Source: Gaiellales bacterium (GTDB lineage Bacteria; Actinomycetota; Thermoleophilia; Gaiellales; JAICJC01). From it: 64,000 nucleotides of DNA. The notes beneath the pieces were generated by a model. The model searched no databases and was not told the origin of the DNA. It saw only the letters and a list, made by a program, of their open reading frames with translations. Location of the stretch: contig DASUHM010000035.1 of the NCBI GenBank assembly GCA_036273515.1, positions 1 through 64,000 on the forward strand. Reading direction: 5' to 3'. Below, piece by piece: positions 36,462 to 41,165 of the stretch (the first letter of the stretch is position 1; the number at the start of each line of letters is the position of its first letter). Made by a program: the position numbers and the translations under genes.

Positions 36462-38048
36462 GTGACAGGAGCGGCGTCGGCCAGCGGTGGGCAGGCCGAG
36501 CACTCCGGCATGGGCGCGCGACTGCGGCAGCTGGCCGGCCAGTCGTTCGTCTACGGCCTCGGCGGGATCGTGTCCAAGCTGGTCGGCATCTTCCTGCTGC
36601 CGATCTACACCAGGCCCGAGTATGTGAGCCAGGCCGGCTTCGGCCAGGTCGAGACCGTGATGGCGGCGAGCTCGCTGGCGTCGATCGTGTGCCAGTTCGG
36701 GCTGACGACGGCCATGTTCCGGTTCTGCTGGGACCACCGCGAGCCGGACTCGCGCCGGCGCACGATCCGCACCGCCTTCACGGCGGTGATGATCCTCTCG
36801 ACCATCGCGACCCTGGCCGGCGTCGTCGCCATCGACCCGATCTCCTCGGGCCTCGAGGTCACCCGCGAGCTGGCGCTGATCGGCCTCGCGGGCCTGTGGG
36901 TGACGATCCAGTACACGATCGTCACCGGCATCTACCGGATCGAGCAGCGGCCGACGGCGTTCATCGTCTACTCGTTCATCAACATCGCGATCACGATCGT
37001 GCTCTCGATCGTGCTCGTGATCCCGCTGCGGATGGGCGCCGCCGGGATCATGCTCGGCAACTTCTCGGGCACCTACCTGACGTACTTCCTGCTCCTGTGG
37101 GCGCGACGCGACATGGTCGGGTTCGCGATCAACTGGGGGCTGCTGCGCCAGATGCTTGTGTTCTCGCTGCCGCTCATGCCCTCCGGCGTGGCTCTTTGGG
37201 CGCTCAACCTGGCCGACCGCGTCCAGGTGCAGCGGCTGACGCCGGGCACGCAGCTCGAGCGCAGCGCCCAGCTCGGCACCTACTCCGCGGCGAACAAGAT
37301 CGCGCTCGGGATCATGCTCATCATCTCGGCGTTCCAGACCGCCTGGATCCCGTTCGCGAACCTGATCATCGACGACGGCGACGCCAAGCGCACGTACCGG
37401 GCGGTGCTGACCTACTGGTCGATGGTGATGGCGTGGGGCGTGGTCACGATCACCGCGCTCTCGACGCCGTACATCCACCTGACCATGAACCCGGACTGGT
37501 TCGGCGCGGTCCCGGTGGTGCCGCTGCTCATGTCCGGCTCCGTGCTCTACGGGGCGTACTACATCCTGAACATCGGGGTGAACCGGTCGAAGCGGACGAA
37601 GATGACGCCGCTCGTGACCGGGTCGGCCGCCGCGGTCAACATCGGCCTGAACTTCTGGATGATCCCGAAGTGGGGCATCCTCGGCGCCGGATGGTCGACC
37701 GTCGCCGGCTTCTCTGTGCTGGTCGTGCTGGGGTGGCGCAACGCCCAGGCCAGCTATCCGGTGTCCTACGACTTCAAGCGGGTGCTGCGCATCGTCGCCC
37801 TGGCGGCCCTCTTCATGGTGGTGCTGGTCGAGCTGGTCCCGCCGGTCGGGATCGCCGGGATCGGGCTGCGCGTCGTGCTCGTGCTCATCTTCCCGCTGGC
37901 GCTGGTCGGCGCCGGCGTCGTCACGCCCGGCGAGCGGACGCGCATCATCGCGCTCGCGAAGCGGATCCGCTCGCCGCGCAAGGGCAAGCGGGCCGACCTC
38001 GAGGAGGAGCTCGAGGTCGAGCGCGAGTCCGAGGAGGCGCCGCTGTGA
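36462..38048 (+). CDS. polysaccharide flippase, MOP superfamily (Wzx/RfbX type)
   Basis: 528-residue membrane protein with about 14 hydrophobic segments. It starts with SFVYGLGGIVSKLVGIFLLPIYTR, a typical Wzx N terminus, and has the repeated family pattern YSAANKIALGIMLIISAFQTAWIPF. It should flip a lipid-linked saccharide or peptidoglycan-like precursor. The C-terminal tail is highly charged (about residues 500-528, Glu-rich). The GTG at 36462 has no clear ribosome site; an ATG at 36510 (MGARLRQLAGQSF) is a likely alternative. Confidence 0.87.
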   Translation: MTGAASASGGQAEHSGMGARLRQLAGQSFVYGLGGIVSKLVGIFLLPIYTRPEYVSQAGFGQVETVMAASSLASIVCQFGLTTAMFRFCWDHREPDSRRRTIRTAFTAVMILSTIATLAGVVAIDPISSGLEVTRELALIGLAGLWVTIQYTIVTGIYRIEQRPTAFIVYSFINIAITIVLSIVLVIPLRMGAAGIMLGNFSGTYLTYFLLLWARRDMVGFAINWGLLRQMLVFSLPLMPSGVALWALNLADRVQVQRLTPGTQLERSAQLGTYSAANKIALGIMLIISAFQTAWIPFANLIIDDGDAKRTYRAVLTYWSMVMAWGVVTITALSTPYIHLTMNPDWFGAVPVVPLLMSGSVLYGAYYILNIGVNRSKRTKMTPLVTGSAAAVNIGLNFWMIPKWGILGAGWSTVAGFSVLVVLGWRNAQASYPVSYDFKRVLRIVALAALFMVVLVELVPPVGIAGIGLRVVLVLIFPLALVGAGVVTPGERTRIIALAKRIRSPRKGKRADLEEELEVERESEEAPL

Positions 38049-38096
38049 CCGGGCCGGAGCGGGCCGCGGACAGCCTCACCGTCCGCCGCGGCTAGG

Positions 38097-39170
38097 TCAG
38101 CCCGAGCGGCGCTTCTGGCGCGCCCGCTCGCGCCCCTCCTTGCTGGTCGCCTGCCAGCGCTTGCGCTCCTCCGATCGGGCGCGGGCGTCGTGGCGGATCT
38201 CGAGGTAGCGCAGCTCGCGCTGGAGGTGGCGGAAGCTCTCCAGGCGGGCCGGGTCGAGCGCGCCCGTCCCGATCGCCTCGCGGACGGCGCAGCCGGGCTC
38301 GGTGCGGTGCTCGCAGTCGCGGAACTTGCACTGCTGGGCCAGCTCGTCGAGGTCCTCGAAGGCGCGGTCGAGCCCCTCCTCGGCGTCCCACAGGACGAGC
38401 TCGCGCATCCCCGGGGTGTCGATCAGGCAGCCGCCGCCGGCGAGCGCCACGAGCTCGCGGTGCGTGGTCGTGTGGCGGCCGCGGCCGTCGGAGCGGACGG
38501 CTGCCGTGGCCAGCCGCTCGGCGCCGCACAGGCGGTTCACGAGCGTCGACTTGCCGACGCCGGAGGAGCCGACGAGGGTGGCGGTGCGCCCGCCGGCGAC
38601 GTGCGCCGAGACCTCCTCGACGCCCTCGCCCGTCACGGCCGAGACGACGTGCATGGGGACGCCGAAGGTGACGCCGGAGATGTGCGCCACGGCGGCGTCG
38701 ACGTTCGAGCACAGGTCGGCCTTGGTGAGGACGACGACGGGCTCGGCGCCGCTCTCCCAGGCCAGCGTCAGGTACCGCTCGAGGCGGCGGGCGTTCAGGT
38801 CGTCGACGAGCGACGTGACGCAGAAGACGACGTCGACGTTGGCGGCGACGACCTGCTCGACCGACTCGAAGCCGGCCGTCTTTCGCACGAACGCCGTACG
38901 CCGGGGCAGGACGGCCTCGATGACGGCGCGGTCGTCCGGCCCGCCGCGGCGATAGGCGACCCAGTCGCCGACCGCGGGCAGGTCGACCGGCGAGGCAGCG
39001 CGATGGCGCAGGCGGCCGGGGACGCCGGCCCAGACTTCGCCCTCCCCGGTCAGGAGGACGAGGGCGCCGCGGTGCTCGACCGCGACGCGGCCCGGCGCGA
39101 GGCCGGTCTCTTCGTACGGCTCGAACTCGGCGGCGAGGGCCGGCCCGAAGCCGAGGTGTGCAAGGCTCAC
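38097..39170 (-). CDS. rsgA: ribosome small subunit-dependent GTPase A
   Basis: 357-residue circularly permuted GTPase that assists late 30S maturation. An OB domain (AVGDWVAYRRGG) comes first. GTPase motifs follow in permuted order: VVLTKADL (G4), VSAVTG (G5), GSSGVGKSTLVNRL (G1), then IDTPGMREL (G3). A zinc site CKFRDCEH...EPGC follows, and the C-terminal tail is basic. The GTG at 39170 has GAGGAG about 9 bases upstream. A promoter and a 13-codon upstream ORF lie at 39261-39368. Confidence 0.95.
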   Translation of the reverse strand: MSLAHLGFGPALAAEFEPYEETGLAPGRVAVEHRGALVLLTGEGEVWAGVPGRLRHRAASPVDLPAVGDWVAYRRGGPDDRAVIEAVLPRRTAFVRKTAGFESVEQVVAANVDVVFCVTSLVDDLNARRLERYLTLAWESGAEPVVVLTKADLCSNVDAAVAHISGVTFGVPMHVVSAVTGEGVEEVSAHVAGGRTATLVGSSGVGKSTLVNRLCGAERLATAAVRSDGRGRHTTTHRELVALAGGGCLIDTPGMRELVLWDAEEGLDRAFEDLDELAQQCKFRDCEHRTEPGCAVREAIGTGALDPARLESFRHLQRELRYLEIRHDARARSEERKRWQATSKEGRERARQKRRSG

Positions 39171-39260
39171 TGGAGGGTTCTCCTCGGGTACGGATGGACG
39201 GACGCGTGTGCGCCGTCGTCGACTCCGAAGGTCAGCCCTGCGGTCTCGCCGGGCGGTCGG

Positions 39261-39302
39261 TCAGACGCGGCGCATGGAGGCGGATCGGGCGGTCGTGCTC
39301 AT
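39261..39302 (-). CDS. 13-codon upstream ORF in the rsgA leader
   Basis: ATG at 39302 gives MSTTARSASMRRV and stops at 39261, 90 bases before rsgA. It has one of the best ribosome sites in the window (GGAAGGAGG, about 7 bases before the ATG), and lies about 30 nt after a promoter with consensus spacing. A ribosome site this good on so short a frame suggests a regulatory upstream ORF rather than chance. Ser/Thr and Arg codons make up most of it; I see no clear terminator between it and rsgA. Confidence 0.5.
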   Translation of the reverse strand: MSTTARSASMRRV

Positions 39303-39339
39303 TTGTCTGCCTCCTTCCGTCGCGGACTCGTACCGGCTC

Positions 39340-39368
39340 AGGGTAGCCAGCGTCCGTCAAGGCGTCAA
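39340..39368 (-). promoter_or_regulatory. sigma70-type promoter for rsgA and its upstream ORF
   Basis: On the minus strand TTGACG (39363-39368), a 17-base spacer and TACCCT (39340-39345). A second TTGACG lies within the spacer. The start would fall near 39333. The -35 lies at the 3' end of the spacer next to the sulfatase-fold gene's stop. Confidence 0.6.
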
Positions 39369-39369
39369 G

Positions 39370-40653
39370 CTAGAGGTAGCCGAGCTCGCGGAGCCGCTCG
39401 GCGATCTCCTCGTCGTCGTCGGCGGCCATCTCGACGGTCTCGGCCCGGTCGGCGACGAGTCCGCGCAGCGTCTCGCGCAGGTCGTCGGCGAGGCCCGGCT
39501 CCGTCGGCGCCAGGTTGTGAAGCTCGCCCGGGTCGGACTCCACGTCGTACAGGGCGTCGGCGACGCGGTCGTCGTCGAACGACGTGATCAGCTTGTGCCG
39601 GCCGAGCCGGATCGCCTGCTGGCGGATGGCCGGGATCGACGGTGCGACCGCGATCTCCATCGCGACCGGATGCGAGGGCGGCTCGGTGCCGTCGCGCAGC
39701 GCCCCGGCCAGGCTCGTGCCCTGCCAGCCCGCGTCGGGATGGGCGGCGCCGGTCAGGTCGACCAGCGTCGGTGCGAGGTCGACGTGGCTCACCGGCGTGC
39801 GCCGCGCGCCCGGCACGATGCCGGGGCCGGAGACGACGAGCGGCACGCGCACGAGCGACTCGAGCAGGGTCTGGCCGTGGTTCCAGAAGTAGCGCGGCGC
39901 CCAGCGCAGCGCGCGCTTCGAGCCGCTGCGCACGCCATGGTCGACGGTCTTCTGCGCCCACTCGGCGATCGGCAGGCGCTGATTGATGCGCCGCCAGGCC
40001 GCCTGCTCGCGCAGGTTGTGCGGCTCGAGGACCGTGTTCTCGCCGTGGTCGCCGGTGAGCACGACGATCGTGTCCGGCCCGGCCGCGTCGATCGCCTCGC
40101 CGATCCACGCGTCCATGCCGGCGATCGCGCGCTCGTACGCGTTTCGGCCGTGGGCGCGCGACTCGAACCGTGGCGGATAGGTGCGCGGCGTGTGCGCGTC
40201 CCACAGGTGGACGAGGGCGAAGAACGGGCGGGCGCCACCGGCGAGGCGGGCGATCTGGGCGATCCCCTCGCGGCCCCAGTCGGAGTGCACGGAGCGCTGC
40301 GGCACGTCGCGGTACTGGGCGTCGGCGAAGCCGCGGAAAGAGCCGACGGTGTCGAGCAGCGGCCCGGTGGCCGAGCACCAGGTGGCGAGGCCGCCGCGGC
40401 CGAGCTGCTCGGCGGCGGTCGGGATCGACTCGCTGAGCTGCGTGCCGCGCAGGCCCTGGACGCCGTGCGCGCTGGGATAGCGGCCGGTCAGGAGCGCGGT
40501 CACCGCAGGGGTGGTCGTGGGGCAGGTCGAGTAGCAGGCGCCGAAGCGCGCCCCGCCGGCCGCAAGCTCGCTGATCCGCGGCCACGACCGGCGGCCGCGG
40601 GCGACCATGTCGGCCCGCAGGCAGTCGACCACGATGAGGAGCAGGTTCGCCAC
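39370..40653 (-). CDS. sulfatase-fold hydrolase with Thr at the nucleophile position
   Basis: 427-residue alkaline-phosphatase-superfamily protein (sulfatase domain). Metal-site segments are VVDCLRAD at the N terminus and TGDHGEN (about residue 200). The nucleophile motif, C/S-x-P-x-R-x3-L-TG in sulfatases, reads TTPAVTALLTGR: Thr at the catalytic position and no Arg two residues after Pro, so formylglycine cannot form. Thr is the nucleophile in the phosphoglycerol and phosphoethanolamine transferase branch and in some phosphatases. No membrane helix or signal peptide is visible. The GTG at 40653 is chosen because the fold begins there and TACACT lies 8 bases upstream. Confidence 0.82.
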   Translation of the reverse strand: MANLLLIVVDCLRADMVARGRRSWPRISELAAGGARFGACYSTCPTTTPAVTALLTGRYPSAHGVQGLRGTQLSESIPTAAEQLGRGGLATWCSATGPLLDTVGSFRGFADAQYRDVPQRSVHSDWGREGIAQIARLAGGARPFFALVHLWDAHTPRTYPPRFESRAHGRNAYERAIAGMDAWIGEAIDAAGPDTIVVLTGDHGENTVLEPHNLREQAAWRRINQRLPIAEWAQKTVDHGVRSGSKRALRWAPRYFWNHGQTLLESLVRVPLVVSGPGIVPGARRTPVSHVDLAPTLVDLTGAAHPDAGWQGTSLAGALRDGTEPPSHPVAMEIAVAPSIPAIRQQAIRLGRHKLITSFDDDRVADALYDVESDPGELHNLAPTEPGLADDLRETLRGLVADRAETVEMAADDDEEIAERLRELGYL

Positions 40654-40661
40654 GGCAGCGG

Positions 40662-40667
40662 AGTGTA
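40662..40667 (-). promoter_or_regulatory. -10 element (leaderless), sulfatase-fold gene
   Basis: TACACT on the minus strand, 8 bases before the GTG at 40653. The matching -35 position falls inside the perfect palindrome at 40673-40701. Confidence 0.5.
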
Positions 40668-40672
40668 TGCAT

Positions 40673-40701
40673 GAACAACCGGTGCCAGGCACCGGTTGTT
40701 C
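40673..40701. repeat. 29-bp perfect palindrome with REP-like core
   Basis: GAACAACCGGTGCC, a central A, then the exact reverse complement: 14-base arms. The inner 13 bases are the GGTGCC-A-GGCACC core seen at 2764 and 59694. It sits upstream of the sulfatase-fold gene. Confidence 0.85.
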
Positions 40702-40710
40702 GGCGGAGGC

Positions 40711-40779
40711 GGCGGGGTCAGACCCCGAACGAAAGTGCAACGGAACTGTCACGGCCACCGTTCGGGGTCTGACCCCGCC
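40711..40779. repeat. REPIN-like composite element, copy 2
   Basis: Cores GGGGTC-A-GACCCC (40714-40726) and the inverted GGGGTC-T-GACCCC (40764-40776), with flanks GGC/GCC and CGAACG/CGTTCG paired. The middle TGCAACGGAACTGTCACGG is the reverse complement of the middle of copy 1. It lies just after the stop of the VOC gene. Confidence 0.85.
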
Positions 40780-40784
40780 TCCGG

Positions 40785-41165
40785 CTACTCGTACGAGATC
40801 AGCTCGAGCAGCGTCCCGTCGGGGTCGCGGAAGTAGACGCTCTGGCCGTCGCCGCGGGCGCCGCCGCGCGCGGTCGGGCCGATCTCGACCTCGATGCCGC
40901 GCGCCGCCAGGTGCTCGACGGCGCCGGCGATTGGGCCGTCCCACACGAAGCAGAGGTCGCTGTTCCCCGGGCGGACGGGATCGCGCGCGACCGGCGAGGC
41001 GTTCACCCCGGGTCCGTGCACGTTCAGCTGCTGGCCGCCGAAGCGGTACGCGTACCCGGCGCCGCGCTGCACGAGCTCCGCGCCGAGGACGTCGCGGTAG
41101 AACGCGTTCGCGCGCTCCCAGTCGCTCACGGCGATCACGCAGTGGTCGAAGCGGATCTCAGCCAT
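40785..41165 (-). CDS. VOC superfamily (glyoxalase-like) protein
   Basis: 126-residue vicinal-oxygen-chelate domain: FDHCVIAVSDWERANAFYRDVLGAE, then QLNVHGPG, and FRDPDGTLLELISYE. Metal-ligand positions His7, His (VHGPG) and Glu (LLELI) are present. It could be a dioxygenase, lyase or resistance protein; the substrate is unknown. The ATG overlaps the 3' end of the upstream ureohydrolase gene by eight bases, so the two are co-transcribed. Confidence 0.86.
   Translation of the reverse strand: MAEIRFDHCVIAVSDWERANAFYRDVLGAELVQRGAGYAYRFGGQQLNVHGPGVNASPVARDPVRPGNSDLCFVWDGPIAGAVEHLAARGIEVEIGPTARGGARGDGQSVYFRDPDGTLLELISYE

Follow-up and report, generated by a model that had tools for sequence, protein, structure and literature searches.

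A candidate leader-ORF translational attenuator upstream of a divergent rsgA gene in a Gaiellales bacterium

RsgA is a GTPase that tests 30S ribosomal subunits ahead of their entry into translation. In the 64,000-nucleotide stretch of Gaiellales DNA analysed here (the window), the rsgA gene follows a 13-codon upstream ORF (uORF) with a strong ribosome site of its own, and the two are joined by an RNA leader whose predicted alternative structures are backed by covariation among relatives. We propose that this leader may act as a leader-ORF translational attenuator resembling those of ermC and toiL, in which ribosomes held at the start of the uORF would be the ON signal in leaders of the window type, a reading that we regard as moderately probable. 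The structural parts of the proposal are supported by the sequence, while transcription, translation and regulation are what we infer from them.

Results

The leader upstream of rsgA

All elements of the rsgA leader are located on the minus strand, at the positions given in the original prediction, and the leader is flanked by a sulfatase-like gene (39370-40944) and rsgA (38097-39170). The -35 element TTGACG (39363-39368) and the -10 element TACCCT (39340-39345), with a 17-nt spacer between them, were read directly from the sequence, as were the uORF ribosome site SD1 (GGAAGGAGG, 39310-39318), whose box CGACGAAAGGAGG is common in relatives, and the rsgA ribosome site SD2 (GAGGAG, 39180-39185). 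TTGACG is doubled here (TTGACGCCTTGACG, 39355-39368, minus strand), and only its first copy lies 17 nt from TACCCT. The uORF (39261-39302) runs from an ATG at 39302 to a TGA stop at 39263-39261 and encodes the peptide MSTTARSASMRRV; exactly 90 nt separate its stop from the GTG start of rsgA at 39170. The promoter, site, 13-codon ORF and 90-nt gap that had been claimed are thus all present as described. Given the promoter, the uORF and rsgA would be carried on one transcript, with the uORF served by its own ribosome site. Reading of the uORF into rsgA was ruled out by intervening stop codons. The uORF site had also been called better than that of rsgA, and folding agrees, since just after transcription the predicted opening cost of SD1 in the window is 2.9 kcal/mol vs 8.1 kcal/mol for SD2; an equal or higher cost than that of SD2 was found at 12% of 51 SD-bearing gene starts of the genome.

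The product of rsgA scores 163 bits with TIGR00157, which passes the cut-off of 100 of this curated model, and it is the sole RsgA copy found in the window genome. The RsgA proteins of the nearest named relatives are 87% and 68% identical to it.

Conservation of the uORF and its ribosome site

In a scan of 464 kb of the same genome (the window and a further 400 kb, with 385 genes from a crude prediction), no intergenic ATG ORF of 10-24 codons other than the window uORF combines an AGGAGG site with a following gene, and the pattern GACGRAAGGAGGN{3,10}ATG (box GACGRAAGGAGG-ATG) occurs a single time in the 4.07 Mb genome. A protein search of 101 genomes gave an RsgA match in 86, and from a subset of these matches 70 upstream stretches were taken (30 loci plus 40 hand-chosen ones), covering order-level relatives in the class Thermoleophilia. 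A site-led ORF of 10-24 codons is present in 53 of the 70 upstreams, this range having been fixed after a first look at data of the same relatives. Among ATGs picked by an AGGAGG or AGGGAGG site alone, 53/54 open ORFs of this length vs 33/111 of the other ATGs. As for the 17 upstreams without a scan match, two (L084 and L111) have an ORF with a weaker site that was recognized by eye; the remaining 15 include several second copies, five whose RsgA is of the distant type seen in two other families, and one truncated by a contig end. The uORF has apparently been lost in a few relatives, such as L025, L093 and L102. In L093 (genome G073) a uORF-like site box is kept close before the rsgA TTG and the uORF ATG is gone, which amounts to a natural loss.

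Loss of the ATG or the site in close relatives had been set as the observation that would count against the uORF, and it did not occur: the uORF with its ATG and strong site is conserved in both congeners (G001 and G002), in G003 and G004 of the same family, and across most of the order. The leader element of G002 (MRTTARSASMRRL) is near-identical to that of the window and that of G001 (MMTTDRAASRRRTA) is more changed. The conservation check that had been suggested came out positive for ORF length and ribosome site, but not for the peptide, which varies in sequence.

A strict match to a TTGAC-17-TANNNT promoter precedes 23 of the 53 uORFs, vs a mean of 0.06/53 after shuffling, and in the promoter-bearing leaders the -10 element lies 30-47 nt 5′ of the uORF ATG. 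The gap between uORF stop and rsgA start ranges from 39 to 242 nt, and the 53 leader-bearing rsgA genes start with TTG (45), GTG (7) or ATG (1). The uORFs of the Thermoleophilia (L007-L117) mostly stop with TAG (40/53, in the context CTAGC in 28/53), vs 13/29 for the rsgA genes, and those of other clades stop with TAA or TGA, unlike this TAG bias. Across the class, the pattern RAAGGAGG...ATGA...CCTCC was found in 74 of 299 genomes, counted outside the order as a pattern match alone. When 40 genomes from the class's remaining families were searched and 18 upstreams read, site-led ORFs of 22-33 codons were seen to end 5′ of rsgA in L149, L150, L155 and L157, and no leader ORF was evident in most of the other upstreams.

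Alternative pairings of the leader RNA

Three pairings are predicted in the leader. In P1, GGAGGC (39309-39314), which overlaps SD1, pairs with GCCTCC (39281-39276) within the uORF. In P2, ATGCGCCGCGTC at the uORF end (39264-39275, core TGCGCCG at 39274-39268) pairs with GACGACGGCGCA between the uORF and rsgA (39209-39220, core CGGCGCA at 39215-39209). In P3, CTTCGG (39225-39230), the anti-SD of rsgA, pairs with CCGAGG (39182-39187), which overlaps the rsgA ribosome site; its complementarity has p = 0.17 in the window leader alone. P2 can form inside the P3 loop. Across leaders, the partner in P1 is a CCTCC-like sequence inside the uORF, in most cases 14-24 nt past the A of its ATG, and the anti-SD of P3 lies near or 3′ of the uORF end.

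Covariation was assessed by an alignment-free test, in which each leader's own arms were compared with arms swapped between leaders in 2000 permutations; eight near-copies were dropped, which left 45 non-redundant Thermoleophilia leaders of the 53. The observed mean was reached by 7/2000 permutations for P1, 8/2000 for P2 and 0/2000 for P3, and by 1384/2000, 772/2000 and 331/2000 for the control pairs (anti-SD region with rsgA +20 to +46, uORF with SD2, and SD1 with the inter-ORF region, respectively). Compared with shuffles, complementarity at p ≤ 0.05 was found for the P1 type in 10/53 leaders and for the P3 type in 17/53. SD1 is predicted to close as the uORF is transcribed, with a median opening cost of 3.1 kcal/mol early and 8.6 kcal/mol with the full uORF, vs 6.6 kcal/mol in shuffled sequences (19/53 at p ≤ 0.05); in the window the cost rises from 3.6 to 12.5 kcal/mol once the whole uORF is transcribed. 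A strong sequestration of SD2 beyond that of shuffled sequences was considered and set aside, the signal being weak (mean z 0.41; 11/53 at p ≤ 0.1; window p 0.22). A search with Rfam gave nothing at gathering score in window positions 38000-40000, with one match far below it, and among 18 plus 12 related loci it gave only two tRNAs and no known RNA family.

A modelled ribosome on the uORF

Placing a modelled ribosome on uORF codon 1 or 2 abolishes P1, makes P2 cheaper and lowers the barrier at SD2 in the window (G000), both congeners and G088. The cost of P2 falls from 2.4 to 0.6 (G000), 4.7 to 1.9 (G002), 0.8 to 0.1 (G001) and 3.6 to 0.0 (G088), and the opening cost of SD2 from 8.1 to 6.5, 9.6 to 7.7, 6.5 to 3.8 and 7.1 to 3.5 kcal/mol in the same order. 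These effects on SD2 are modest, at 1.6-2.7 kcal/mol for the window leader and those of the two congeners. The exchange of P1 for P2 was obtained by folding in four of the five leaders tried; the exception, G072 of group A, takes the P2 state without a ribosome. In the window leader, SD2 is not released by a modelled ribosome that sits at the stop or anywhere from codon 3 to codon 8. In group C (L101 and L108), a ribosome at the uORF stop drops the opening cost of SD2 from 9.5 to 4.2 and from 9.2 to 3.8 kcal/mol.

A footprint model applied to all 53 leaders lowered the opening cost of SD2 by at least 2 kcal/mol in 2 leaders with the ribosome on codon 1, 4 with it in the middle, 10 with the stop in the A site and 9 with the stop in the P site, and raised it by at least 2 kcal/mol in 2, 4 and 3 leaders for codon 1, the middle and the stop in the A site, respectively. 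A uniform release of SD2 at the uORF stop was rejected, as it is not general over the 53 leaders.

The uORF peptide

The uORF peptide is variable, and the synonymous values are 0.23 observed vs 0.30 expected in the Thermoleophilia and 0.17 observed vs 0.28 expected in Streptomyces; a small synonymous excess (0.33 vs 0.23 expected) was observed in the Halobacillus-type family. A function at the level of the peptide was set aside for the Thermoleophilia and Streptomyces, where no synonymous excess is seen, and the RLR arrest motif is absent from the window peptide MSTTARSASMRRV. Because the peptide varies and lacks such an excess, the act of translation or the position of the ribosome is more likely to be the signal, with the identity of the peptide probably of lesser weight than where the ribosome stands.

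Leaders in other lineages and the RsgA subfamily

Leader ORFs were also found upstream of RsgA-family genes in Perspicuibacillus, Halobacillus, Streptomyces, and metagenome-assembled genomes of Sericytochromatia, Cyanobacteria and Chloroflexi, some of them by eye. Several leader ORFs of other phyla show similar pairings, and their peptides are unrelated. In the Halobacillus-type family (44 genomes, 43 with an RsgA match, 30 loci fetched), a leader ORF of 18-26 codons is present in 30/30 loci, many of the peptides ending like GGHHS or GGHSNS. After eight near-copies of these 30 leaders were dropped, P1 covaries (0/2000; for example GTGATG/CATCAC, GTGGTG/CACCAC and GCTGATG/CATCAGC), P2 is suggestive (143/2000), and the value for P3 (1748/2000) is uninformative as to covariation because its arms are near-invariant. 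For Streptomyces, RsgA was matched in 121/121 genomes, and 30 loci were scanned, with a complete reading of 15 upstreams; 27/30 loci hold a leader ORF of 22-24 codons behind a ribosome site, and 21/30 pass the motif filter. The Streptomyces leaders (L244-L273) end in TGA and have in common a peptide pattern resembling MAVxxxGAARIQKFIxSTSVASG, and their codon positions 1 and 2 are more variable than position 3.

In a tree of 51 RsgA proteins, the window RsgA is placed outside the canonical lineage, in a divergent clade (split support 100/99), and all 23 leader-bearing rows fall on this divergent side, which indicates that the leaders go with the divergent RsgA subfamily; the divergent side also includes rows without a leader. 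Canonical RsgA copies had a site-led small ORF in 0/5 and 1/7 cases in two sets, as counted by a scan that can miss weak sites (it missed the leader of L182).

RsgA matches were found in 184 plasmid records, some of them low-identity or chromosome-sized. Among the five plasmid upstreams read, a leader is present in L235 and L239 by scan and in L236 by eye, and no leader was found in L237 and L238. On two plasmids, a divergent rsgA is located directly 5′ of a fosfomycin thiol transferase gene (fosM/fosB) and a HAD hydrolase gene (L238, 1474-2996 of NZ_CP130332.1; L240, 1180-2695 of CP031730.1). CP031730.1 is labelled Stenotrophomonas rhizophila, which reflects either transfer or a misnamed record.

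Discussion

In the mechanism that we propose, the mRNA would start about 35 nt 5′ of the uORF. In a leader free of ribosomes, P1 and P3 would stand and rsgA would be poorly translated, while a ribosome that binds or is held up at the first uORF codons would disrupt P1, allowing P2 to form, SD2 to open and RsgA to be synthesized. In this way the uORF would report ribosomes that initiate but stay put, which is a fitting signal for a GTPase of 30S maturation. Other clades of the order may differ, with the uORF stop codon as the release point in group C and an intrinsic terminator, recognized by eye, added to the output in group A. The original prediction had suggested that a translated uORF could tie the level of RsgA to translation. 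The conserved uORF, ATG and site, together with the covarying alternative pairings, partly support that interpretation, since such pairings could make the translation of rsgA depend on uORF-bound ribosomes; against it, the release of SD2 in silico is not uniform and several relatives have no uORF.

Simple translational coupling is one rival reading: as a constitutive leader, the uORF would feed ribosomes to rsgA or clear them through the inter-ORF hairpin, and rsgA would follow general initiation capacity with no stall being sensed. The weak rsgA start codons, 45 of 53 being TTG, next to a stronger site on the uORF fit this explanation, as does the lowered opening cost of SD2 with a ribosome at the uORF stop in group C. 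However, gaps of 39-242 nt are long for reinitiation, a ribosome at the uORF stop fails to open SD2 in the window model, and the covariation of P2 would be superfluous under coupling. We consider coupling unlikely. Transcription attenuation, in which translation of the uORF would decide whether an intrinsic or Rho-dependent terminator acts before rsgA, seems improbable to us. Terminator-like hairpins with T runs lie, as judged by eye, between the uORF and rsgA in L027, L029 and L031 and in the Firmicutes relatives L040 and L224, and group A has an alternative GAGCCTC/GAGGCTC pairing, but a T-run hairpin is absent from the window leader and, by eye, from most others.

It is more improbable still that the uORF is nonfunctional as an ORF, with the promoter, the site box and the RNA fold alone being conserved. 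The variability of the peptide and its lack of synonymous excess would be expected in that case, yet site-led ATGs open short ORFs far more consistently than the control ATGs (53/54 vs 33/111), and leaders with unrelated peptides recur in other phyla.

Beyond the window, we speculate that the divergent RsgA subfamily, which spans at least four phyla and is sometimes plasmid-borne, might be a ribosome-stress-inducible GTPase, turned on when ribosomes are held up at the uORF start (for example by faulty 30S subunits or initiation-blocking drugs) and forming a 30S counterpart of HflXr, and that this inducible form is now the only RsgA in the Thermoleophilia; we put this forward tentatively and with some doubt. 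If the attenuation reading is true, a conserved leader that senses ribosome behaviour would feed the state of translation directly back to 30S quality control. Halobacillus-type bacteria, which can be cultured, and Streptomyces carry comparable leaders that are open to experiment.

A literature search that covered few subscription papers yielded no publication on control of rsgA by a uORF, and in the portion available of a review of RsgA and other assembly GTPases, leader peptides appear only in a reference title (PMC6912228). What would be new in the present case is a putative leader-ORF attenuator on a 30S-assembly GTPase, with the leader's own ribosome site predicted to be closed by its own coding region.

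The rsgA leader can be compared with three known systems. In ermC-type attenuators, 1:2 plus 3:4 pairing vs 2:3 pairing hides or frees the second ribosome site, and the rsgA leader is predicted to share this pairing plan. Unlike in ermC, the 1:2 stem of the rsgA leader includes SD1 itself, whose predicted closure follows transcription of the uORF, and the gene that would be regulated encodes no methyltransferase. In the toiL uORF of the Escherichia coli topAI-yjhQ transcript, ribosome position alters pairing around the downstream site, and one of the inducing states is a stall on the uORF start codon (PMC12121999). The rsgA leader would share with toiL this dependence of pairing around the downstream ribosome site on the position of the uORF ribosome, which is predicted here, whereas toiL controls a toxin-antitoxin operon and this was shown experimentally (PMC12121999). 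Listeria monocytogenes hflXr (lmo0762) is preceded by the 14-aa leader ORF of rli80, and the study of this system, which also names ermC-type translational attenuators, describes transcription attenuation, an RLR motif and demonstrated induction by lincomycin (PMC6310831). Unlike hflXr as presented there, rsgA belongs to another GTPase family, its window leader would act at translation, the window peptide has no RLR and only one RsgA copy was found in the window genome. In both systems, a short leader ORF and alternative RNA folds come ahead of a ribosome-associated GTPase gene whose product is homologous to a housekeeping factor.
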